In this document: positions 43,664 through 56,300 of the stretch, in pieces
How positions within the stretch are numbered: position 1 is the first letter of the stretch
Layout: each line of letters begins with the position of its first letter
Assembly (NCBI GenBank): GCA_030747075.1
Contig: JASLLL010000011.1
Span: 1 to 64,000 of the forward strand
From: Gemmatimonadota bacterium
GTDB taxonomy: Bacteria > ARS69
Direction: 5' to 3'
DNA: 64,000 bases
The notes under the pieces: generated by a model
What the model saw: the letters and a program-made list of their open reading frames with translations, nothing else
What the model was told of the DNA's origin: nothing
Databases searched by the model: none
Position numbers and translations under genes: made by a program

Positions 43664-43870
43664 TCAGTGGGCGCGTGGGCCGGTCACCGATTCGGGCATG
43701 GGGACGGCGTTCACAACCCGCTCGGTTCCGTCCAGGCAGACCACAGACAGCCGCCCCAACGGGGAATCGGCGGGTTCCTCCTGCAGATCCTCGGGCTCAG
43801 GATCCGTGACCTCAGAGTCCGGTGCGGGTGGAATCCAGGATTTGCGTCGGGTGGGTCGGTCGCTACTCAT
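43664..43870 (-). CDS. small hypothetical protein (68 aa)
   Basis: Its ATG at 43870 overlaps the end of the 166-aa gene by 8 nt and has GGGGAG upstream, which supports translation. The first half is Pro/Glu/Asp-rich and disordered; residues 38-60 (LGRLSVVCLDGTERVVNAVP) form a short beta-hairpin-like motif. No family is recognised. It is followed after 52 nt by the FakA-FakB-like gene, so an operon link is likely. Confidence 0.6.
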   Translation of the reverse strand: MSSDRPTRRKSWIPPAPDSEVTDPEPEDLQEEPADSPLGRLSVVCLDGTERVVNAVPMPESVTGPRAH

Positions 43871-44363
43871 GAAACTCCCCTTCGTCCCAACCGCGCCGGG
43901 GCCCTCCCCGGCGTTCGGTCATCAGCTTGGCGCTCCGTGCCGCCAGAATGAGCGGCACCATGTAGTCGAACTCCCCGCGCTCCTTCATGAACGCCCAGGG
44001 GTGCCCCTTCTCGTTGCGGAGAAACCGTCCTCCCGGATCATAGCGGGCGATCTCCTGATCCTGCACGCGGGAAGCCAGAAGAGCCTCCACCCGTACGCCC
44101 GGATCTTCCGCCCCCCAGCGGTAAATGCCCAGATAATTCTTCGGAACCTCCTCCGCACGAAGGTGGAACGGAAGACTGAACACCGCGAGCCGGTCCACCC
44201 TGCCGTGCCAGTCTTGGGTGTGGCAACGCCCGTCGAGGCTCCAACCGAACTCCAGAAGTGATCGTCCGAGTTCCGCCCACGGGCACTCCGGCGGGAAGAA
44301 GGGACCCAGAATGCGGGCCTCGAACTCCTTCCGCGTAAAGACATGTTCCGACTGAACGGACAT
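43863..44363 (-). CDS. hypothetical protein (166 aa)
   Basis: ATG 44363 follows GGGGGCGG. The sequence is compact and globular with aromatic-rich segments (RILGPFFPPECPWAELG, KNYLGIYRWG, GHPWAFMKERGEFDYMVPLI) and no signal peptide or membrane segment. I do not recognise a family. The longer open frame to 44927 crosses the divergent regulator gene and is not used. It heads the minus-strand trio 166 aa, 68 aa, FakA-FakB-like. It is divergent from the XRE regulator with a 247-nt gap. Confidence 0.7.
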   Translation of the reverse strand: MSVQSEHVFTRKEFEARILGPFFPPECPWAELGRSLLEFGWSLDGRCHTQDWHGRVDRLAVFSLPFHLRAEEVPKNYLGIYRWGAEDPGVRVEALLASRVQDQEIARYDPGGRFLRNEKGHPWAFMKERGEFDYMVPLILAARSAKLMTERRGGPRRGWDEGEFHE

Positions 44364-44610: not shown

Positions 44611-45801
44611 TTGGATATCCGGCAGACCGCATCACTCGCAATCCGGGATTCCTGGGGCGAGCGGGAGTTCGCCCGATGGCTGGGCGAGGCTCTGGATGAC
44701 GAAAACACCGCGGGCGCGCGCCTGGAGGCGCTTGTGAAAGCACTGCTTCGTGCGGGGGCGCCGGGAGCGGCTGTGCGACTCACGGAGGCGGCCTTCGCGA
44801 AGGGGGGTGGTTTTCGTCCACAACTCTCCGGTGCGGCGGGCGACGCCGTGGCGAAGTCGCTGGAGTCGGAATGGGAGGCGTCGACCTCCGCGGAGGGGAG
44901 TGTCGGCGACTGGGCGCTCTGGGCCACGCGGGCGGCCGACCTTCGGCGGATGCTTCGCGGAGGGGTGGCCGCCGCGCCCGGTGGACCCGCGCCTTCCGGG
45001 GGTGCGCACCGCCCGAGGACGCTGGTTCGCCCGAGGGGCCGCGGCTCTTCCGGCGGGGCGGAGGTGGCTGTGGGGATCGGCGCGGACGCGGATGTTCTTC
45101 CCGACCCGCTGGACGAAGGCGCTCTGCAGGAGTTCTACCGGTCGCGCGCGCTGGAGCCGTTCCACCGGAATCTGGCGCTCTTCCTGGAAAAGCGCGGCCT
45201 GACGCGACGGGAACTGGCGCGTCGCATCGGCATCAGTGAATCGTATCTCTCACAAATGCTCTCCGGGCGCAGGAAGCCGAGCCTTCGGCACCTTGCCGCG
45301 ATGGCGCAGGCGCTGGACACCGCCCCGGGTCGGCTTCTGGGAGAGCGGGATCGCGCCGAACTGGAACCCGGAGACTCGGACACCTTTCGTCCGGGCAGGA
45401 TCACCCACCCGCACGAGGCGCTGGCCGAACACTTCGAAGTCCACTTTTACCCGGGGCCGGATGTCCCGACAGACGGGATTCTCGCACGCACGCACCTGGT
45501 GACGGCACCATCGCGAGGGCCGCAACTCTGGAGTCTGGACCACCGCTATCTTCTTCGCGACCACTCCGGGAGACTCCACATTTCGTCCGATGCGGGCCCA
45601 CTGGACGGCGGTTGCGCCCGGCGGTTTGCGCTTCTCGACGGGCGGCTTGTCCGGACCCCCCTTCGGCACCCCAGCGCAGAGGACCCGAAAGAGACGACGA
45701 CCGACGGAACCGTGCCGTTCCCGGAACCCGCCTTCACCTTCCTCGGGCGAATCCACGGCGCATGGCTTGGCCCTACGGCGCGAGGCGGGGATGCGCCTTG
45801 A
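44611..45801 (+). CDS. XRE-family transcriptional regulator with N-terminal extension
   Basis: The 396-aa protein has a TTG start with an ideal AAGGAGG 7 nt upstream. Residues 1-170 are helical and Ala/Glu-rich with no known family. A helix-turn-helix of the XRE (Cro/C1) type lies at about residues 185-240 (LTRRELARRIGISESYLSQM, then LSGRRKPSLRHLAAMAQALD). The C-terminal 130 residues (LAEHFEVHFYPGPDVPTDGI ... LGRIHGAWLG) are beta-rich and recall a degenerate S24/LexA fold without a visible catalytic pair. It lies 70 nt before the exopolysaccharide genes and could regulate them. TACAAT at 44522-44527 may be its -10. Confidence 0.85.
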   Translation: MDIRQTASLAIRDSWGEREFARWLGEALDDENTAGARLEALVKALLRAGAPGAAVRLTEAAFAKGGGFRPQLSGAAGDAVAKSLESEWEASTSAEGSVGDWALWATRAADLRRMLRGGVAAAPGGPAPSGGAHRPRTLVRPRGRGSSGGAEVAVGIGADADVLPDPLDEGALQEFYRSRALEPFHRNLALFLEKRGLTRRELARRIGISESYLSQMLSGRRKPSLRHLAAMAQALDTAPGRLLGERDRAELEPGDSDTFRPGRITHPHEALAEHFEVHFYPGPDVPTDGILARTHLVTAPSRGPQLWSLDHRYLLRDHSGRLHISSDAGPLDGGCARRFALLDGRLVRTPLRHPSAEDPKETTTDGTVPFPEPAFTFLGRIHGAWLGPTARGGDAP

Positions 45802-45827
45802 CACCGCGCGGAGGCGCCCCGGATATT
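45798..45827 (+). promoter_or_regulatory. possible promoter of the exopolysaccharide operon
   Basis: TTGACA (45798-45803), an 18-nt spacer and GATATT (45822-45827) overlap the end of the XRE gene and precede the exporter ATG by 44 nt. Confidence 0.5.
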
Positions 45828-45871
45828 GCCGCTCTTGTTGGCAAGACTCCGGAAAGGCAGGGTACGCGTCC

Positions 45872-47419
45872 ATGACCCGCGCGATTCTTCACGCTCTGGC
45901 GGTTGCCCTGCTTCTGGTCGCTCCCGCAGTCGCCACGGACATCCCCGACCCGACCCCGGTGCCGCCGCCCGCCGTGGAAGTGCGCGAGGGTGCCCTGTCC
46001 GGCCCGATCGACCCGGATGTCTACATGGTGGGTCCGGGCGACCTCTTCACGGTCACCATCCGCGCCGGAGAGGTGGTCTCGCTGGCAGCCGCCGTGACCC
46101 CGGAAGGGAACCTTGTCCTGCCGGGCATCGCGGTCGTTCCGGTGGCGGGCCTTTCGCTCACGGGGGCGCGCGCCGCGGCGCTCTCCCGCATCGGGGAACA
46201 GTATCGCGAGGCGGCGGTGAGCATTGCGTTGACCGGGCTTCGCCGGATTGAAGTGCATGTTCTCGGCGCGGTGGCCAACCCCGGTCCGCGCATCGGCACC
46301 GCACTCGATCGCGCGGGCAGGTTGGTGAACGCGGCGGGCGGTGTACTCGACGGCGGCAGCCGGCGCAACATTCGCATTACCCGGCCCGGTGGCGAGGAAC
46401 GCCGCGTGGACCTGGCGCGCTATGAGGCGCTGGGAGACCTGGATGTGAATCCCCCCATTCTCGACGGAGATGTCATCCTCGTTCCCTTCGCCAAGGGACA
46501 GGTGTCCATTCACGGGTCGGTCGAAGAGCCGAACGCGTATGAGTTTGTCCCGGGTGAAACCGTCGAGGGGCTTGTCGGTCTCGCGGGTGGCGTGTCCCGG
46601 GAAGTGCGGGCGGATTCGATTGAGGTCCGGAGCTTTCTGGACGGAACACGCACGCGATCGGAACTTCTCCCGTGGGCGCAGGGGTTTGCGCGAACCCTGA
46701 GCGAGGGCGACCAGGTCTACATCCGGTTCCGGCCGGACTGGCACGAGACCCGCAATGTCGAACTGGAGGGCGAGTTTCTGTCGCCCGGGCTTTACGGAAT
46801 CAACGAGGGCACCGACCTGCTCTCGGATGTTCTCCGTCGCTCCGGCGGCTTCACGCCGGAAGCCTCTCTTCACGACGCCACGGTGGTGCGCATTGCCAGG
46901 AGCGACATCGTCGACGCGGAGTACGAACGCCTCAAGCAGGTTCCCATCGAGGAGATGACAGAACTGGAGTACGCGTACTTCAAGACGAAGTCACGCCAAC
47001 GGCCGGGCCTTCTCGTGGTGGACATGGAACAACTGCTGGCGGGAGACAAGGGAGAGGACATTCTCCTTCGCGACGGAGACCGCGTCGCGATTCCCCGCAA
47101 GACGGAGACGATCGAGGTCGCCGGCCAGGTGGCTCGCCCTGGACGCGTGACATGGGTGAAGAGCAAGCCGCTGGCGTGGTATGTGAACCGCGCGGGAGGG
47201 TATTCCTCCAGCGCGCGCCGGAGCCGGATCCGCGTGATTCGCGGAGCCACGGGAGAATGGGTCCCGTCCCGGAAGGCGGGGGAACTGCTGCCCGGCGATG
47301 TCATCTGGGTACCCGAGAAGCCGGAGCGGGACTGGTGGAAGACCGCGCAGGAAACGGTCCGCTTTGCCGCGTCGGTGGCGACCGTGTATCTCGTCATCCA
47401 TCAAGCCACCGGCAACTAG
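45872..47419 (+). CDS. polysaccharide export protein with SLBB domains (Wza-like)
   Basis: The 515-aa protein has a signal peptide (LHALAVALLLVAPAVAT) and a polysaccharide-export domain (YMVGPGDLFTVTIRAGE, LTPEGNLVLPG-like region). Repeated SLBB domains follow (VHVLGAVANPGP, VSIHGSVEEPNAYEF, VELEGEFLSPGLYGI, IEVAGQVARPGRV). A hydrophobic segment near the C-terminus (FAASVATVYLVIH) may be the outer-membrane helix. There is no lipobox, unlike E. coli Wza. It would form the exit channel for the product of this cluster. ATG 45872 precedes the Wzz gene by 9 nt. Confidence 0.9.
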   Translation: MTRAILHALAVALLLVAPAVATDIPDPTPVPPPAVEVREGALSGPIDPDVYMVGPGDLFTVTIRAGEVVSLAAAVTPEGNLVLPGIAVVPVAGLSLTGARAAALSRIGEQYREAAVSIALTGLRRIEVHVLGAVANPGPRIGTALDRAGRLVNAAGGVLDGGSRRNIRITRPGGEERRVDLARYEALGDLDVNPPILDGDVILVPFAKGQVSIHGSVEEPNAYEFVPGETVEGLVGLAGGVSREVRADSIEVRSFLDGTRTRSELLPWAQGFARTLSEGDQVYIRFRPDWHETRNVELEGEFLSPGLYGINEGTDLLSDVLRRSGGFTPEASLHDATVVRIARSDIVDAEYERLKQVPIEEMTELEYAYFKTKSRQRPGLLVVDMEQLLAGDKGEDILLRDGDRVAIPRKTETIEVAGQVARPGRVTWVKSKPLAWYVNRAGGYSSSARRSRIRVIRGATGEWVPSRKAGELLPGDVIWVPEKPERDWWKTAQETVRFAASVATVYLVIHQATGN

Positions 47420-47428
47420 GAGGGCGCA

Positions 47429-48643
47429 GTGGATCAGGAATCCCTCGGCTCGGTGCTCTTCGCGTGGCGGCGGTTTGTCTGTGCGGTGACGGCGGTTGCG
47501 GCGGTCGTGTCTGTGGTGGTGAGTCTTCTCCTGCCGCGATGGTATGAAGCGACCGCAACCTGCATGCCGCCCGAGAAGGGCTCGCCCGGCGGGTCGCTGA
47601 TGATGGGCCTGTTGGATCAGTTCGGCGGCGGGATGGCGTCGCGAAGCCTGCTGTCGAGAACCCCGGAGACAGACATCGCGCTGGGTGTGTTGAAGAGCCG
47701 CAGCGTGCGCGCGAAGGTTGTCGACCGCTTCGACCTGACAGAGGTCTACGGGTCCCGAACGCCGCAGCACGCCACGGAGAAACTCGGCAAGCACATCACG
47801 GTACGCACCACGGCAGAGGGGATGCTCGAGGTTCGCGTGGAGGACAGGGACGGGCAACGCGCCGCGGACATGGCGAACCTGTTCTTGGAACTGCTCGATC
47901 AGCACAATCGCCGGGCCAGCGTGGAAGACGCCCGCCGAACGCGGGAGTTTGTGGAGGGCTGTCTCGCGGAGAGCCGGACGCGACTGGAGGCCGCTTCCTC
48001 CGACCTTCGCGCGTTTCAGGAAGAGCACGGCGCGATCGCGCTGGCGGAACAGACACGGGTCACCGTCGAGGCCATCGCGGAACTTCAGGCGCAGCAGGCC
48101 CAACTGGAGATCACCCGGGGAGTCTTGTCCGACCATGCGCTTCCCGGGGAGATGCGCGTGGAAGAAGTGGACGCACGCCTCCGCGAGGTCGCCCGGCAGA
48201 GGAACGCCCTGGAGGGCACGGGCGCGCAAGATCACGGCGCGTCCGGCGCACTGCTTCCGTTGTCCGGCATCCCGGCCATTGGGGCGCGGTTTGCGGACCT
48301 GACCCGGGAGGCGATGGTTCGCGAGAAGGTCTACGCCTTTCTCACGACACAACTGGAGGAAGCGCGCATTCAGGAGGCGCGGGACCTCCGAACCGTGGAC
48401 ATTCTCGACGAAGCCATTCCTCCCGTCAAAAGGGCCAGACCCCGACGGAGCCTGATCGTGGTACTGACCTGCGTGCTGGCCCTGCTGGGCACCATGGGGG
48501 TGGCGCTGGTCACGGAAACGGCCCGAACCCAACTGGCCGGAGGCCCCATGGAGGACCTTCTTCCCGTCAAGGCGCTTCTGTCATTCCGGTCGTGGGCGGT
48601 CGGGGGTGCGGGCGACCCGCCCTCGGGGTCGCCGCAATCGTGA
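47429..48643 (+). CDS. Wzz-type polysaccharide chain-length/co-polymerase protein
   Basis: The 404-aa product has two transmembrane helices flanking a periplasmic helical domain: VCAVTAVAAVVSVVVSLLLP near residue 20 and LIVVLTCVLALLGTMGVALV near residue 355. The coiled middle part (AAFAEEQ... EAIAELQAQQAQLEI) is typical. It lacks a C-terminal tyrosine kinase. GTG 47429 follows AGGAGG. It controls chain length and connects with the SLBB exporter. It overlaps the sulfotransferase gene by 4 nt (GTGA). Confidence 0.88.
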   Translation: MDQESLGSVLFAWRRFVCAVTAVAAVVSVVVSLLLPRWYEATATCMPPEKGSPGGSLMMGLLDQFGGGMASRSLLSRTPETDIALGVLKSRSVRAKVVDRFDLTEVYGSRTPQHATEKLGKHITVRTTAEGMLEVRVEDRDGQRAADMANLFLELLDQHNRRASVEDARRTREFVEGCLAESRTRLEAASSDLRAFQEEHGAIALAEQTRVTVEAIAELQAQQAQLEITRGVLSDHALPGEMRVEEVDARLREVARQRNALEGTGAQDHGASGALLPLSGIPAIGARFADLTREAMVREKVYAFLTTQLEEARIQEARDLRTVDILDEAIPPVKRARPRRSLIVVLTCVLALLGTMGVALVTETARTQLAGGPMEDLLPVKALLSFRSWAVGGAGDPPSGSPQS

Positions 48644-49533
48644 TCGACGAGGACGGCTGGCCGAACCTCTTTATTGTCGGAGCGGCGCGTTCGGGAACGA
48701 CCTCTTTGCACAGGCACCTGGCCGGGCACCCGGAAGTTCACATGTCGGAACCGAAGGAACCGCACTTCTTCTCCGATGCCGGAACAGACCCGCGCGGACT
48801 GGTGCTCCGGGTGACGGACCCTGTCGCGTACCGCCGCCTCTTCGCGGGGGCGAACGGCAAGACCATTGTCGGAGAGTCCAGCACTTCCTATGCGTGGGAT
48901 CCCAACGCCCCGCGCCGGATTCACCGGAAATCCCCCGACGCGAAGATCATCCTCATCGCGAGAAACCCGATTGAGCGGGCGTTCTCACACTACCTGATGG
49001 GGGTTCGGGAAGGCCTGGAGAGCGGTAGTTTTTCAGAAGCCCTCGCGCGGGATGAACGCCGCACGGAAAAGGGGTGGGGCGTCTCCCGGCTCTATGTGGA
49101 ACTGGGGATGTACTGCGATGCCGTGATTCGTTTTCGCGAGACATTCGGAGAGGATCGCGTTCGGGTCCTCGTGTTCGAGGAGATGACGCGGGATACGGAA
49201 CAGACCCTGCGCGAAGTCTGTGAGTTCCTCGGGATTGACCCCGGCGGGGTGAGCGCGGAAGGGTTGGACACGGCACACAATGCTTATGGCGCACCCAGGA
49301 ACCGGGCGTTCGCCCGCCTGCTGGGGAGTTCGCGATGGGTGGGGCTTCGACGGAGGTTGCCGTCCCGCGTGAGGAAGTTCTTTCGGTATCGGCTGCTCTT
49401 GCGCACGGGAGGCAAGCCGTCTCCGGACCCGGCCGCCCGGAAACTGCTCCGCGACAAGTACCTTCCGGAGGTTCGACGATTAGAGGAGGTCCTTGGACGC
49501 TCCATGCCCTGGCCCGACTTTTCCGGAGGCTGA
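48640..49533 (+). CDS. sulfotransferase family protein
   Basis: The 297-aa enzyme has the PAPS-binding 5'-phosphosulfate loop LFIVGAARSGTTSLHRHLA, the substrate strand MSEPKEPHFF and the 3'-phosphate motif ILIARNPIERAFSHYLMGVR. This is the P-loop sulfotransferase fold (PF00685 type). In this cluster it probably transfers sulfate to a saccharide or lipid, implying a sulfated polymer. GTG 48640 overlaps the Wzz stop, so translation is coupled. No PAPS synthesis genes are in the window. Confidence 0.88.
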   Translation: MIDEDGWPNLFIVGAARSGTTSLHRHLAGHPEVHMSEPKEPHFFSDAGTDPRGLVLRVTDPVAYRRLFAGANGKTIVGESSTSYAWDPNAPRRIHRKSPDAKIILIARNPIERAFSHYLMGVREGLESGSFSEALARDERRTEKGWGVSRLYVELGMYCDAVIRFRETFGEDRVRVLVFEEMTRDTEQTLREVCEFLGIDPGGVSAEGLDTAHNAYGAPRNRAFARLLGSSRWVGLRRRLPSRVRKFFRYRLLLRTGGKPSPDPAARKLLRDKYLPEVRRLEEVLGRSMPWPDFSGG

Positions 49534-49539
49534 TTCGAA

Positions 49540-50937
49540 ATGACCGGCGAACGAATGTTGTCGGGGGCCGCCGGGCGAGGCGTGATCGCCGCAACGCTGA
49601 TGGCGGCGCTGGCCACCAGCGTCGCTTTCTTTCCGGCCAAGACGGCGTTTCTGGTTCTCACGCTTGCGATGTCCGGCGCACTGATCTGGAAAGTCGGCCT
49701 TCGCCGGGGCGCGTGGCTGCTTGCGTTGATCACGATTCCGCTCAGGCAACCGCTGGGTTCGGATGTGCTGGGGACGATCACCCTCTACTACGGCGATGTT
49801 CTGCTCTTCACGCTTCTCGGGGCGACTCTCTGGCGGGAAGGCCTGTCCGGCTTCCTGCGAAGCACGACACTTCGCATCGGCCTTGCGATTCTCGCGATCA
49901 GCACGGCGGGGCTCTACGGAGCGCCGCAACCCATTCACGGACTGGAGACGGTCCACCGCATGGCGGCGCAACTTGCGGTCTTCGTGATTGCGAAGAGCGA
50001 GATTCGTACGGCAGGGGACGCCAGGCAATCGCTGCTGGCGTTTCTCGGCGGGCTGTCCGTCGCCATGACCTACGGGCTCTATCAGGCCTCGCTGCCGGTG
50101 ACGCCGGGGGCGTATGTGGGGTGGGCGACCGCGCACGCCGCCTACGATGCCGGGACCGGCGACATGAAGCTCCGCATCTTCTCCACCTACGATCACGCGC
50201 TTCACTTTTCGCATGCGCTGTCCGTGGGGTTCGGGCTGGCGCTCGGGCTTCTGTCCGGTCGACAGGGAGTCTGGGGGCGCGTGTTCCTGGGCGCGGTTGT
50301 GGTGGCCGCGGCCACATGCAACCAGCACACCTACTCCGTGGGCGGCGCCGTGGCCGTCGGGTCGACGGTGGCGGTCTGGAGCGTGCTGGGTTCGCGCCGC
50401 CGCCTTCTGGTGATCCTGCCCGCACTGGTGCTCGTCTGGACGGTGTCCGCGCCGGACGCTCTCTACCGGCGACTCGACCAGGTGTTCAGCGGGAAGTCCA
50501 CTTCCGCCATGGCCCGGATCATCACCTACCACCAGGTGGCGGAGGTGGTTCGGGACCACCCGGTTCGCGGAGTGGGATGGGGGGGGATTTCGCGAAGTCT
50601 GGATCAGGATTACCGCACCTCCCACGCTCGAAGTGTCGCGCTGACCGCGGAGAACCTCTTTCTTCAGCGCGCGCTGGCCATGGGCGTGCCCGGGCTTGCG
50701 CTGATGGTGGCACTCTTTGTGCTCTTCGCGAGGAATGTGGCGAAGGGTCGGCCACCGCCGGGGAGGTCGCGCCCGGAAGAATGGCCGAGAGCCGCGCTGA
50801 TACTGGGCGGCACGGCGTTTCTTGTGCAGGGGATGGTCATTCCCGTGGGTGACGAGAGCAGCAACTACCTCCTGTGGTTTCTTCTCGCGATGGCGGAGCG
50901 AATGCACGAAGCCACGACAACCTCCGGGGGTGCGTGA
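49540..50937 (+). CDS. O-antigen ligase/polymerase-like membrane protein (Wzy/WaaL family)
   Basis: The 465-aa protein has about 10-11 hydrophobic segments, for example AATLMAALATSVAFF, AWLLALITIPL, LLVILPALVLVWTVSA and GLALMVALFVLFA. The large loop near residues 315-385 contains ARIITYHQVAEVVRDHPVRG and GVGWGGI, in the position of the Wzy_C motif. It would polymerise or ligate the saccharide made by this cluster. Its gene ends in GTGA, overlapping the next glycosyltransferase. Confidence 0.82.
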   Translation: MTGERMLSGAAGRGVIAATLMAALATSVAFFPAKTAFLVLTLAMSGALIWKVGLRRGAWLLALITIPLRQPLGSDVLGTITLYYGDVLLFTLLGATLWREGLSGFLRSTTLRIGLAILAISTAGLYGAPQPIHGLETVHRMAAQLAVFVIAKSEIRTAGDARQSLLAFLGGLSVAMTYGLYQASLPVTPGAYVGWATAHAAYDAGTGDMKLRIFSTYDHALHFSHALSVGFGLALGLLSGRQGVWGRVFLGAVVVAAATCNQHTYSVGGAVAVGSTVAVWSVLGSRRRLLVILPALVLVWTVSAPDALYRRLDQVFSGKSTSAMARIITYHQVAEVVRDHPVRGVGWGGISRSLDQDYRTSHARSVALTAENLFLQRALAMGVPGLALMVALFVLFARNVAKGRPPPGRSRPEEWPRAALILGGTAFLVQGMVIPVGDESSNYLLWFLLAMAERMHEATTTSGGA

Positions 50938-51917
50938 CGGTCTCGCTGATTCTGGTGAACTACAACGGCGGATCGGAACTCGCCGGGCACCTGGAGCGCC
51001 TCGCGAGAGGTCCGTGCGCGGAGGAGTCCGAGATTCTCGTGGTCGACAACGGGTCGGACGACGGCAGCGGACAGCTTGCCGCCCAGCGTCGGATTCCGGG
51101 TGTGCGTGTGCTCATCGAGCGAGAGAATCGCGGGTACGCGGCCGGAGTGAACCGGGGTCTCCGCGAAGCCACGGGCGATGTCTTTGTCATCCTGAACCCG
51201 GATGTGGTTCCCGGGGAGGGGGCGGTTGCCCGGCTGGCTTCGGCAGCCCGCAGCCACCCGGAGTACTTCCTCTTGGGCGGCACCATTGTGGACAGAAGCG
51301 GCGCGGTGAATCGCTGCAGCGCGCGTCGCCGCCCGGAGGTTCGGGACATTCTGCGGGAGGGGTTCTTTCTCCCGCGCAGGAGGAGCGCGGAAGTCCGCCG
51401 CGTGATCGCCGGGGAGAGCGGCGTGATCTCGACGGACCTGGTCTCGGGGGCGGCCATGGCCGTTCTTCGCACGAACCTCGTCGCGCTCGGTCCCATGGAC
51501 GAGGACTACTTTCTCTACCAGGAAGATGTGGAGTGGTGCGACCGTGCGCGGGCGACGGGGGGGCGCGTGGGGGTGGTGCCGGATGCGCGGTTCGCTCACG
51601 AAGGGGGGGCGTCCACCCGCCAGAATGAGGCGGCACCCTTTGCCGCCCGGGTGCTGTCCGACTACCAGTACTTCATCGAATCTCGCGGAGTGCCGGAGAG
51701 TCGGTTGCGCTTTCGGTGGCTGTGGCGACTGGGCTTTCGCGCGCACCTCTACCGCGCCGACGCGAAGTTCGGCATTCTGGGCGGCCGCGGGAACTCTCCG
51801 GAGCGCGCCCGGATCTACCGGGACCTTCGCGACGCACTGCGGGGCTTTCGCTGGTCGACAGTGGAGGGCGCGCAGAACGCCCATCCGGATCGCCTTCGAA
51901 GCGGGGTCACGGAATGA
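50934..51917 (+). CDS. GT2 family glycosyltransferase
   Basis: The 327-aa enzyme has the GT-A fold: VSLILVNYNGGSELAGHL, VVDNGSDDGSGQLA, ENRGYAAGVNRGL and the DXD-like VILNPDVVPGE, then MDEDYFLYQEDVEWCDRA. The pattern is of rhamnosyltransferase-like GT2 enzymes. GTG 50934 overlaps the polymerase stop by 4 nt. The next gene starts within its stop (ATGA). Confidence 0.9.
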   Translation: MTVSLILVNYNGGSELAGHLERLARGPCAEESEILVVDNGSDDGSGQLAAQRRIPGVRVLIERENRGYAAGVNRGLREATGDVFVILNPDVVPGEGAVARLASAARSHPEYFLLGGTIVDRSGAVNRCSARRRPEVRDILREGFFLPRRRSAEVRRVIAGESGVISTDLVSGAAMAVLRTNLVALGPMDEDYFLYQEDVEWCDRARATGGRVGVVPDARFAHEGGASTRQNEAAPFAARVLSDYQYFIESRGVPESRLRFRWLWRLGFRAHLYRADAKFGILGGRGNSPERARIYRDLRDALRGFRWSTVEGAQNAHPDRLRSGVTE

Positions 51918-53017
51918 TCCGTCGAATCGCACTTCTCGGGTCGGCGGGCTCGGTCCATGTCGTTCGCTGGGCGAACGCGCTGGCCTCGCGCGGGCGGGAG
52001 ATCCACCTGATCAGCATGCATCCGCCTTCTCCGTCCCTGCGCCCGGAAGTCCACATACATCCCCTTCCCGTGCCTGCGCCCGCCGGATATGTGCTGAACG
52101 CGCGAAGCGTCCGCGCGGCCCTCCGGACGATCAGGCCGGAAGTCCTGAACACGCACTTCGCCAGCGGATACGGAACACTGGGGAGGTTGTCGCGCTTTCA
52201 CCCGCACGCCCTGTCTGTGTGGGGCAGCGACATCGAGTACTTCCCGAACCGGTCCCGGATTCACCGCCGGATCCTGTGCGCCAACCTGGCCTCGGCCGAC
52301 CGGATCTTCGCGACCAGCCAGGCACTCTTGCGCGGCGTTCGCGATCTTGCCCCCGGGGTTCCCGCAACGCAGACCCCCTTCGGCGTGGATGTGGGTCGTT
52401 TCTCGCCACGCACCAAAGCGGAGCCGGGCGGGAGCGTCACGGTGGGGACGGTGCGATCGCTCAAGCCGGTCTACGGGATTGACCTGCTGCTCCGGGGATT
52501 TGCGCGGGCCGTGGAGACTCTTCGCCGGACACGAGATCCGGCCGGAGACCGCATGCGGCTTCGGGTCGTGGGGGGCGGACCGGAAGCGGCGGCGCTTCAA
52601 TCGCTGGCGCGGGAACTGGGCATCTCTGACCGAACGGAGTTTCGGGGGCGCATCTCCCACGATCGGATTCCGGAGGAACTGCACGGCTTCGATGTGTTCG
52701 TGGCGCCGAGCCGTCGCGAAGGCCTGGGCGTTGCGGTTCTGGAGGCCGCGGCGTGCGGGGTTCCCGTGGTCGCCTCGCGGGTGGGGGGGCTTCCGGAAAC
52801 GGTCGATGACGGCCGGTCCGGCATCCTCCTTGAACCGGAAGATGTGGACGCGCTCGCCACCGCCCTCATTCAGCTCTGCACGGACGCGGGCCTGCGTGCC
52901 CGCATGGGTCGCCATGGGCGCGAATGGGTGCTCGACCGGTTTGCCTGGGAAGACTGCATCTCCACCATGGAAGACGCGCTGGAACTCGTCGGGCGTTCAC
53001 ACGGAGAGGGCGAGTGA
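51914..53017 (+). CDS. GT4 family glycosyltransferase
   Basis: The 367-aa GT-B enzyme has an N-terminal Rossmann part (IALLGSAGSVHVVRWANALA) and the GT4 C-terminal motif SRREGLGVAVLEAAACGVPV with GGLPETV. It starts at ATG 51914 overlapping the GT2 stop. The donor and acceptor sugars cannot be deduced. It overlaps the following GT4 gene by GTGA. Confidence 0.92.
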   Translation: MIRRIALLGSAGSVHVVRWANALASRGREIHLISMHPPSPSLRPEVHIHPLPVPAPAGYVLNARSVRAALRTIRPEVLNTHFASGYGTLGRLSRFHPHALSVWGSDIEYFPNRSRIHRRILCANLASADRIFATSQALLRGVRDLAPGVPATQTPFGVDVGRFSPRTKAEPGGSVTVGTVRSLKPVYGIDLLLRGFARAVETLRRTRDPAGDRMRLRVVGGGPEAAALQSLARELGISDRTEFRGRISHDRIPEELHGFDVFVAPSRREGLGVAVLEAAACGVPVVASRVGGLPETVDDGRSGILLEPEDVDALATALIQLCTDAGLRARMGRHGREWVLDRFAWEDCISTMEDALELVGRSHGEGE

Positions 53018-54249
53018 GGATTCTCTACATCTCCCAGTACTTCCCGCCCGAAGTGGGCGCGACCCAGTCCCGGGCACACGCCATGGCGCGCGGGTTGGTA
53101 CAGGCCGGACACAGGGTCACCATGTTGACCGAGTTTCCCAACCACCCGACCGGAGTCATTCCGCCCGGGTATCGCGGCAAGCTCTTCGAGAGGGACACGC
53201 TGGACGGAATCGACATCCTGCGCGTGCGGGTTCTCGCGTCGCCCCGCCCGGGTTTTGTCCGCAGGATGTTGTTCTACCTGAGCTTCATGGTGATGGCGGC
53301 CTTTGCGGGTGTGGCCGTGGCGCGCGGCCGGTTCGATGTCGTCTATGTCACCTCCCCGCCACTCTTCGCGGGGGCGTCCGCGCTGGTCGTTCGCGCCCTA
53401 CGCCGCATCCCGATGGTGATGGAGGTGCGCGACCTGTGGCCCGAGTCGGCGGTGCAGTTGGGAGAACTGCGCGAAGGGTTCGCGTGCCGGATGGCGGAGC
53501 GACTCGAAGCGGCGTGCTATCGACACTCCCGGCGGGTGGTGGCGGTCACGGAGGGAATCCGGACGGCTCTGCAGGAAAAGGGCGTGCCGGACGCGCGGAT
53601 CATCAGCATCCCGAATGGCGCGGACACGGACCTCTTCCGTCCGCACTCCCGGGCGAAGCGCCGCGAGGAGTGTCCGCTCGATCTGGAACCGGACGACTTT
53701 GCGGTTGTCTACACCGGGTTGCACGGCCTGGCCCACGGGCTGGAGACGATCCAGGACGCGGCGGAGATCCTGCGGGAGGAACGCACGATCCGCTTTGTGT
53801 TCGTGGGAAGCGGCCCCCGAAAGGCCGCGCTGGTGGAGAGGGCGCGGGGGCGCGGGTTGGATCAGGTCTCGTTTTTCGACGAAGTGCCGGAAGCCGACCT
53901 TCCGCACATTCTTGCGCGTGCGGATGTGGGGATCGACACGCGAAGAAAGCTTGGAATCACAACCGGAACCCTCCCGGCGAAGATGTTCAACTACATGGCG
54001 TGCGAGTGCCCGGTGCTTCTGGCCATCGAGGGCGAAGCGGCGGAGATGCTTGCCGGAGCCCGTGCGGGAGTCGCGGTGCCCCCCGAAGATCCGGAGGCGC
54101 TGGCCGGAGCGATCCTTCGACTTCGCTCGGATGCCGAGCGAAGGGTCCGTCTGGGGAAGAACGGCCGGGAGTTCGTGTTGAAGCACCACTCCCGTTCGGC
54201 CCTCGCCCGGAAACTGGAGTCGGTGTTGCGAGAGGAAACGGGTTTCTGA
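53014..54249 (+). CDS. GT4 family glycosyltransferase (WbuB-like)
   Basis: The 411-aa protein begins RILYISQYFPPEVGATQSRA with GTEFPNHPTG-like TMLTEFPNHPTGV, the N-terminal pattern of WbuB-type fucosamine transferases. It has a single hydrophobic segment (FYLSFMVMAAFAGVAVA) and the C-terminal TLPAKMFNYMACECPVLLAI. GTG 53014 overlaps the upstream stop by 4 nt; GGAGAGGG precedes it. It ends the polysaccharide operon. Confidence 0.9.
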   Translation: MRILYISQYFPPEVGATQSRAHAMARGLVQAGHRVTMLTEFPNHPTGVIPPGYRGKLFERDTLDGIDILRVRVLASPRPGFVRRMLFYLSFMVMAAFAGVAVARGRFDVVYVTSPPLFAGASALVVRALRRIPMVMEVRDLWPESAVQLGELREGFACRMAERLEAACYRHSRRVVAVTEGIRTALQEKGVPDARIISIPNGADTDLFRPHSRAKRREECPLDLEPDDFAVVYTGLHGLAHGLETIQDAAEILREERTIRFVFVGSGPRKAALVERARGRGLDQVSFFDEVPEADLPHILARADVGIDTRRKLGITTGTLPAKMFNYMACECPVLLAIEGEAAEMLAGARAGVAVPPEDPEALAGAILRLRSDAERRVRLGKNGREFVLKHHSRSALARKLESVLREETGF

Positions 54250-54404
54250 TTGCGGTCCCGAACAGGCGGCCTCCTCCCTTGCCATGGTAGCGAAGACGCG
54301 TAGATTCGGTCGGGCGGGGTTTCGGGAGCAGCGCTCCGGGGTCCGGGACACCCGGTCGCCACGGAGTCCCGGACCGCGCCCGGTTCTTCCCGGGGAGGGG
54401 CAGG

Positions 54405-56300
54405 ATGAACACACAGGAACTCTATCGCAGCAAAGTGGTCACCGCGCAGGAGGCCCTCCACAATGTACTGTCCGGATGTCGTGTGTTTGTCGGGTCAGGG
54501 TGCGCGGAACCGCAGTGTCTCGTGCAGGAACTCATCCAACAGGCGGGTCGCCTTCGAGACATCGAGGTGGTCCACCTCCTGACACTGGGCATCGCGGGGT
54601 ATGTCGACGAGGACTTCTTCGGGCACTTTCGCCACAACGCGTTCTTTATCGGCTCGAATGTCCGCAAGGCGGTCCGGGAGGGTCGCGCGGATTACACCCC
54701 GATCTTCCTGAGCGAGATTCCGGAACTGATCACCTCGGGCCAGCGACCGATCGATGTTGCGCTGCTGCAACTGTCCCCGCCCGACCGGCACGGATACTGC
54801 AGTCTGGGCATCCATGTGGACATCCAGCAGGCGGCCGTCCGGACAGCCCACCATGTGATTGCGGAGATCAACCCGAACATGCCGCGCACTTTCGGGGACA
54901 CCATCATCCATCTGGATGACATTGACGCCTGCGTGGAGGTTTCGGACCCCATTCTGGAACTCCCCGTCCCGGAGACCCCGGACGATGTTTCCATACAGAT
55001 CGGCGGCCATGTGGCGCAACTCGTGGACCACGGGAGTTGCCTGCAACTTGGAATCGGGAGCATTCCGAACGCGGTTCTTCGGTTCCTGGGGGAAAAGTCG
55101 CACCTCGGAGTTCATACGGAGATGTTCAGCGACGGACTGCTGGCGCTTCTGGAGAACGGCAATGTGGACAACAGCCGGAAGGCGGTTCACCCGGGAAAGT
55201 CGGTCGTCAGTTTCACGATGGGCACGCGAAAGCTCTACGATTATGTGAACGACAATCCGTCCATTGAGTATCACGCGTCGGACTTCGTGAACGATCCGCG
55301 CGTGATCTCCCGGAACGACCGAACCGTGGCGGTGAACTCCGCGCTTCAGGTGGATCTTACCGGGCAGGTCTGTGCGGACAGCCTCGGGTATCGCTTCTAC
55401 AGCGGCATCGGCGGACAGGTGGACTTCGTGCGTGGAGCGGCCATGAGTCGCGGAGGGAAGCCCATCATCGCGCTGCCCAGCACGGCGAAGGGCGGAGAAA
55501 TCAGCCGGATCGTACCGCGCCTGGACGAGGGTGCGGGGGTCGTGACAAGCCGCGGAGATGTTCACTATGTCGTGACGGAGTGGGGCGTTGCGTATCTGCA
55601 CGGCAAGACGATCCGGGAACGCGCGCTGGCGCTCATCAGCGTGGCGCACCCGAACTTCCGCAAGGATCTGTTGAACTTCGTAAAGCGGAAACACTATGTG
55701 TACGCGGACGAGGCCGCGTGGAAGCAGGAGACAAACCTGTACCCGGTGGAGCGCGAAACGGTGCAGGAGTTCGGCGGACAGGAGTTCCTCGTGCGCCCGC
55801 TCAAGGCCACCGATGAGCGTCCGTTGCAGGAGTTCTTCTACAGCCACGATCCAGAGACCGTTTATCACCGGTACTTCATGGCGAAGACGGAACTCGGACA
55901 CAAAGAGGCCGCCCACCTGTGCCGCCTGGATTACGAACGCCGCATGGCCTTCGGTATTTTTCTTCAGGAGGGAAGGTCCGAACGCTTTGTGGCCGTCGGC
56001 CGGTACGACCTCAATCCCCGGAGCAACTACGCGGAAACCGCGATCGTCGTGGGGGAAAAATGGCGTCGTCGTGGAATGGGGCGGCACCTTCTGGAAGCAC
56101 TTCTCACCCATGCGCAATCGTGCGGGATCGGCGGCTTCAAGAGCGAGGTGCTGGCAAACAATACGGCCATGCTCGAACTTCATCGGTCGATGGGGCACCC
56201 CATGACCTACCGGAAGGACGAGAATACCGTCACCATCCGATACAAGTTCGGCGATGATGTCCCGGCCGCGCCTCCGCCGACACAGGAGGATCGCCGGTAG
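54405..56300 (+). CDS. acetyl-CoA hydrolase/transferase fused to a GNAT acetyltransferase
   Basis: The 631-aa protein has a CoA-transferase module (residues 1 to about 430) with catalytic Glu in LGVHTEMFSDGLLALLENG (about residue 236) and RFYSGIGGQVDFVRGAAM. It is similar to 4-hydroxybutyrate/acetyl-CoA transferases. The C-terminal 160 residues are a GNAT domain with the acetyl-CoA motif VVGEKWRRRGMGRHLLEALL and MLELHRSMG. ATG 54405 has GGAGGGG upstream. Such fusions link CoA transfer with N-acetylation, possibly lysine acetylation of the enzyme itself; the substrate is unknown. It is a separate unit after the polysaccharide operon. Confidence 0.9.
   Translation: MNTQELYRSKVVTAQEALHNVLSGCRVFVGSGCAEPQCLVQELIQQAGRLRDIEVVHLLTLGIAGYVDEDFFGHFRHNAFFIGSNVRKAVREGRADYTPIFLSEIPELITSGQRPIDVALLQLSPPDRHGYCSLGIHVDIQQAAVRTAHHVIAEINPNMPRTFGDTIIHLDDIDACVEVSDPILELPVPETPDDVSIQIGGHVAQLVDHGSCLQLGIGSIPNAVLRFLGEKSHLGVHTEMFSDGLLALLENGNVDNSRKAVHPGKSVVSFTMGTRKLYDYVNDNPSIEYHASDFVNDPRVISRNDRTVAVNSALQVDLTGQVCADSLGYRFYSGIGGQVDFVRGAAMSRGGKPIIALPSTAKGGEISRIVPRLDEGAGVVTSRGDVHYVVTEWGVAYLHGKTIRERALALISVAHPNFRKDLLNFVKRKHYVYADEAAWKQETNLYPVERETVQEFGGQEFLVRPLKATDERPLQEFFYSHDPETVYHRYFMAKTELGHKEAAHLCRLDYERRMAFGIFLQEGRSERFVAVGRYDLNPRSNYAETAIVVGEKWRRRGMGRHLLEALLTHAQSCGIGGFKSEVLANNTAMLELHRSMGHPMTYRKDENTVTIRYKFGDDVPAAPPPTQEDRR

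Follow-up and report, generated by a model that had tools for sequence, protein, structure and literature searches.

Sulfated polysaccharides of bacteria have long been described as nearly confined to cyanobacteria (PMC8205485). The best-studied sulfated exopolysaccharide (EPS) of the Wzx/Wzy type is synechan, made by the xss cluster of Synechocystis 6803, for which the gene of the outer-membrane polysaccharide export protein (OPX) lies outside the cluster, and cyanobacterial sulfotransferase clusters were called “more or less partial” by the same authors (PMC8205485). Here we describe an operon with the gene order OPX/SLBB, Wzz, sulfotransferase (ST), Wzy-like, GT2, GT4a and GT4b (GT, glycosyltransferase) in a 64,000-nt stretch of a Gemmatimonadota genome (the window, which is part of contig C11, JASLLL010000011.1; genome of 2.67 Mb in 61 contigs). 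We consider, with moderate confidence, that this operon is a compact Wzx/Wzy-type module for EPS polymerisation and export, and that its repeat unit probably receives sulfate in the cytoplasm.

Eight + strand open reading frames (ORFs), all of them open, span positions 44611-54249, from a gene for an XRE-family protein (44611-45801) through GT4b (53014-54249). All eight had Pfam matches exceeding the curated cut-offs, in order HTH_3, Poly_export with SLBB, Wzz with GNVR, Sulfotransfer_3, Wzy_C, Glycos_transf_2 and Glycos_transf_1 twice, which bore out the functional label that a first-pass annotation of this DNA had given to each. The six junctions from OPX to GT4b measured 9, -4, 6, -4, -4 and -4 nt, and were thus all <10 nt; the annotation had placed the seven genes correctly but counted five tight junctions.

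The sulfation proposal arises from the gene in the Wzz-Wzy junction (48640-49533), which encodes a 297-aa protein without a transmembrane (TM) segment, assigned as a sulfotransferase dependent on 3′-phosphoadenosine 5′-phosphosulfate (PAPS) by its Sulfotransfer_3 match (PF13469, 76.2 bits). PDB entry 3rnl, whose record says “sulfotransferase” without further name, matched the ST over its whole length (E 3e-50), with heparan 3-O-sulfotransferases and NDST1 as weaker matches. In an alignment of four rows, G19-T20-T21, K39-E40, R108 and S116 were among the positions that did not vary, and the 5′ loop is rich in glycine and threonine; we read G19-T20-T21 as consistent with the PAPS-binding loop, K39-E40 with the catalytic glutamate and R108/S116 with the 3′-phosphate site. 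With a 4-nt overlap between the Wzz and ST genes, and 6 nt from the ST gene to the Wzy start, the three genes are probably translated together. On another contig (C2, locus L026), an ATP sulfurylase gene (sat, 311.7 bits) adjoins a gene for the kinase of adenosine 5′-phosphosulfate (cysC, 179.7 bits). Since a PAPS-type ST stands in an EPS operon of a genome that also carries sat and cysC, a sulfated polymer is plausible. The annotated EPS polymerisation and export operon with a PAPS-type ST held up, and the further claim of sulfation retains the strength that gene content gives it, which is that the polymer is probably sulfated. That the ST is inactive or the operon silent, with no sulfated product formed, we regard as very improbable: the G+C content at third codon positions of the ST gene (0.748) is a little under that of its operon neighbours (0.774-0.813), but its reading frame is unbroken, the motif residues are conserved and the sat-cysC pair is present.

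We compared the operon with four other genomes of the phylum (G001-G004), each of another genus and fragmented. In G001, one contig carried OPX, Wzz, Wzy and GT2 in this order, with identities of about 49, 49-50, 43-44 and 50%, and in G004 one contig carried OPX, Wzz (about 50% identity) and Wzy (41%), the G004 OPX running on to a second contig that is linked to the first by an exact 114-nt end overlap. The G003 OPX ortholog had no other core gene beside it, its neighbours being a sulfatase-family ORF and a convergent transporter, and the partial Wzy ortholog of G003 (46%) was found close to a flippase gene on a different short contig, with the Wzz-Wzy junction not assembled; no Wzy ortholog was found in G002. 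OPX, the PCP (Wzz) and Wzy are thus a core conserved in the phylum, joined by GT2 in one relative, and the notion that the whole cluster is not conserved was rejected, as the core is kept in G001 and G004.

Synteny held for this core and failed for the ST, which was absent from the Wzz-Wzy junction in both relatives with the junction assembled. In G001 the Wzz gene ends at 2244 and the Wzy ORF starts at 2241, and in G004 Wzy starts within ~7 nt of the Wzz stop. It follows that the core is conserved and that the ST is accessory to it, being carried by one version. As OPX types A and C place this genome outside the others (type B pairs it with G004), one gain and one loss of the ST are equally simple. 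This absence fits a reading in which the ST is a passenger, translated with the operon but acting on some other substrate (for example a lipid, or a lipid-linked glycan of the type-B exporter system described below), so that the type-A polymer made here is unsulfated, but the overlapping or near-contiguous genes on both sides of the ST argue for a place in the operon's own pathway.

The kin of the ST bear on the same choice. Among the best 80 of 388 relatives, with flanks of ≤10 kb, many of them truncated where a contig ends, GT profiles made from the window proteins matched in 57 loci, a raw count, and Wzz or SLBB profiles matched in 15. The ST family at large is therefore often found among GTs, contrary to the passenger reading. 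In a quick tree, which had the window ST as its sole row from this genome's ST genes and served only to place the nearest kin, the window ST fell in a subclade of seven rows (SH-aLRT 97), whose six other members came from Pseudomonadota, Myxococcota, Acidobacteriota and a Mycobacterium-labelled metagenome-assembled genome. Polysaccharide genes lay near two of these six loci (L054 and L062), and none were found nearby in the other four (L050-L053, of which L052 spans just 7.2 kb), as would be expected of a passenger. A Fisher test on hand-entered counts (GT match at 2/6 subclade versus 55/74 other loci) gave p 0.054 and was not relied on. The empty junctions in G001 and G004, the few polysaccharide neighbours of the nearest kin and the want of a background for the wider count weigh against our main reading of this operon, as does the breadth of the Wzy_C family taken up below. 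Taken together, the habit of the ST family supports a predicted role in glycan sulfation, and its nearest kin are mixed.

Sulfation in the phylum is linked most to a second exporter lineage. At least three OPX lineages were found in the phylum, and each of the five genomes had one of type B (711-882 aa). In G001 (L156:444-4720), G002 (L159:8481-12415) and G003 (L162:6315-9655) this is a large multi-SLBB gene with sat directly behind it; cysC comes next in G001 and G002, whereas in G003 sat lies at the contig end. Near the type-B OPX of G004 (C133) and of the present genome (C15) there are sulfotransferase genes. PAPS supply is accordingly tied more plainly to type B than to the window operon, since sat/cysC or ST genes stand beside the type-B OPX, and by its gene content this neighbourhood links PAPS supply to predicted polysaccharide export. 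That no other exporter of the phylum is as closely linked with sulfation as type B favours another acceptor for the window ST, but there are further PF13469 ORFs to serve other acceptors: at least six more occur in this genome, and three of these lie beside the type-B OPX. Because the nearest kin of the ST are mixed, we keep the passenger reading as an unlikely yet serious alternative to sulfation of the operon's own polymer. The C15 region (L027, C15:36000-55999) is in itself a second EPS locus, with a large OPX, Wzz, a Wzy-like gene, GT4 and three PF13469 sulfotransferase ORFs.

The first-pass annotation had stated that the cluster has no Wzx flippase, initiator or kinase, and this was borne out. 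Within the one assembly searched, contig C11 had no initiator (PF02397), flippase (PF01943) or tyrosine kinase (BY-kinase) over the TIGR01007 cut-off; one match under that cut-off (55.6 bits versus 108) lay at C11:20812-21216, far from the cluster. Other contigs carry all three, namely PF02397 initiators on C3, C13 and C36, three PF01943 flippase genes on C1, C8 and C36 and a BY-kinase above the TIGR01007 cut-off on C3, so that the search proposed in the annotation for wzx, an initiator and PAPS genes found each of them elsewhere in the genome. The idea that these functions are missing was thus rejected: they are merely unlinked, and since the genome has a kinase and a flippase elsewhere, the lack of linked copies is no peculiarity of mechanism. 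The unlinked initiator, flippase, kinase and PAPS synthesis genes could act in trans. Two further ORFs were observed at these loci. On C36 (L020:11195-13765), a single ORF combines a GT2 domain, a CoA_binding_3 domain and a partial PF02397 initiator domain, and directly upstream of sat-cysC on C2 (L026:11499-15488, - strand) lies a gene whose 1329-aa product has a peptidase C25 domain, FG-GAP repeats and an end that is FlgD-like.

In the pathway that we propose, an unlinked phosphoglycosyltransferase would start the repeat unit on undecaprenyl phosphate, and GT2 with the two GT4s would extend it. The cytosolic ST would then sulfate the repeat unit with PAPS supplied by the sat-cysC pair on C2, after which an unlinked Wzx would flip it, Wzy would polymerise it under the control of Wzz, and the OPX protein would export the product.

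The remaining operon genes are consistent with these roles. The OPX gene (45872-47419; 515 aa; Poly_export, SLBB and SLBB_2) encodes a Wza-type exporter of the outer membrane that falls into type A among the three OPX lineages and whose likely start, as read from the sequence, is the ATG at 45872, 70 nt past the XRE stop. It has a signal peptide, lacks a lipobox cysteine, is matched by Wza chains (E 7e-13) and has orthologs of 44-56% identity in G001, G003 and G004. The Wzz/PCP co-polymerase (47429-48643; 404 aa; Wzz and GNVR) has two hydrophobic segments, counted as two TM segments, and resembles the periplasmic parts of Wzc and CapA-like capsular co-polymerase chains, with the kinase domain absent.

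The Wzy-like protein (49540-50937; 465 aa) belongs to the PF04932 family (Wzy_C, 50.1 bits), which also includes O-antigen ligases. It is accordingly conceivable that the protein is a ligase and that the cluster glycosylates a surface molecule and makes no free EPS; a match to TIGR03097, an exosortase-linked O-glycosylation ligase, points the same way but is weak, at 35.7 bits far under the cut-off of 188. The PF04932 match alone cannot separate polymerase from ligase, and the position behind OPX and Wzz favours a predicted polymerase. Direct Wzy orthologs in G001 and G004 likewise come after OPX and PCP, which serve polymer export, and we therefore hold the ligase reading to be improbable, if marginally less so than an inactive ST. 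A crude hydrophobicity count of five segments was not used for Wzy topology.

Downstream of the polymerase candidate lie the GT2 gene (50934-51917; 327 aa; Glycos_transf_2), GT4a (51914-53017; 367 aa; Glycos_transf_1, 133 bits) and the WcaI-like GT4b (411 aa; Glycos_transf_1, 68.9 bits), the last reaching 207.5 bits against the NF007640 WcaI family, under its cut-off of 276. Past GT2, the next ORF in G001 is a methyltransferase, with no GT4a counterpart at that place. The operon ends 155 nt before the start of the next gene, which is preceded by a promoter-like site at 54279-54306. At 54405-56300, an acetyl-CoA hydrolase/transferase is fused with a GNAT acetyltransferase domain (631 aa).

The XRE gene had been annotated as the operon's own regulator, which was not borne out. 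This gene was absent upstream of OPX in G003 and G004, the two relatives with the flank assembled (the G001 contig ends inside OPX, and no type-A OPX was found in G002), and G004 has divergent GT genes there instead. Between XRE and OPX lies a sigma-70-like promoter-like site (TTGACA-18-GATATT, 45798-45827, + strand; 10/12 match, 0.0 expected in shuffles), whose -35 element overlaps the XRE stop codon. The G004 OPX is preceded by TTGACA-17-AATATT, and CTTGACAC together with TATT is common to this genome, G004 and G003 at the same place in the alignment, the G003 site having been missed by the strict scan. No inverted repeat was found in 45780-45875 near this promoter, and upstream of XRE just long-spaced, G+C-rich pairs were found. 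On the simplest reading, OPX keeps an ancestral promoter of its own, as predicted in three genera, and XRE became its upstream neighbour in this genome; transcription would then probably start from the conserved promoter before OPX and not run through the XRE gene. We thus treat XRE as a neighbour gene whose role as a regulator of the operon is unsupported.

The XRE protein itself (396 aa; HTH_3, 51.9 bits) is read from a TTG start behind AAGGAGG. Its N-terminal part, earlier described as a domain of 170 residues, is better given as a predicted helical part (~1-116) followed by a Gly/Pro/Arg-rich linker (~117-168), ahead of the HTH (~188-243) and an unassigned C-terminal part; the single-sequence AlphaFold2 model was poor (mean pLDDT 42.5) and gives no fold. 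No relatives beyond the HTH were found in the four phylum-mates or in 386 genomes, and matches in the PDB and among the best 25 of 30 PHROGs matches covered the HTH region only. Beside XRE lies a divergent ORF of ~165 aa with no Pfam match (43863-44360, - strand), and positions 44551-44523 of the - strand resemble a promoter.

A broader picture can be offered tentatively, as a possibility that we rate clearly below the sulfated EPS module itself. The phylum may share a fixed OPX-Wzz-Wzy-GT2 chassis with one conserved promoter, on which chemistry would be changed by exchange of a single gene (ST here, methyltransferase in G001), while the second exporter lineage would be tied to PAPS synthesis and sulfated surface glycans would be general in the phylum.

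Similar sulfotransferase-bearing polysaccharide clusters have already been published, and the window locus joins that known kind. Like xss (PMC8205485), it holds Wzy, PCP, GTs and ST in one cluster with part of the pathway elsewhere in the genome, whereas xss, as described there, has an in-cluster Wzx and priming GT, two STs, eight GTs and no in-cluster OPX; its regulators are genetically supported, and chemical analysis showed its product to be sulfated. The wps-1 cluster of Actinoplanes missouriensis (PMC13390465) is likewise a predicted, non-cyanobacterial Wzx/Wzy-type EPS cluster, with STs (one of heparan type) and a methyltransferase, but it has Wzx and, coming from a Gram-positive organism, no OPX; gene disruptions were made in it, and sulfation is predicted there too. 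In Vibrio sp. KMM 8419 (PMC11641403), STs also stand with polysaccharide genes and PAPS genes were identified, but this capsule cluster is ABC-transporter-dependent, includes cysNDC among its 80 genes and makes a polymer of solved structure. The putative sulfated glycosaminoglycan cluster of Pontiella sulfatireligans (PMC7356697), from another little-studied lineage, shares a PF13469 ST among GT2 and GT4 genes, yet is bigger, has other sugar genes and comes from an organism in which sulfated EPS was measured in culture. Against these systems, the window operon widens the list by a candidate sulfated EPS from another, scarcely sampled phylum, and the comparison with its relatives shows that inference from gene content needs care, since it is the ST that varies in an operon conserved in other respects.

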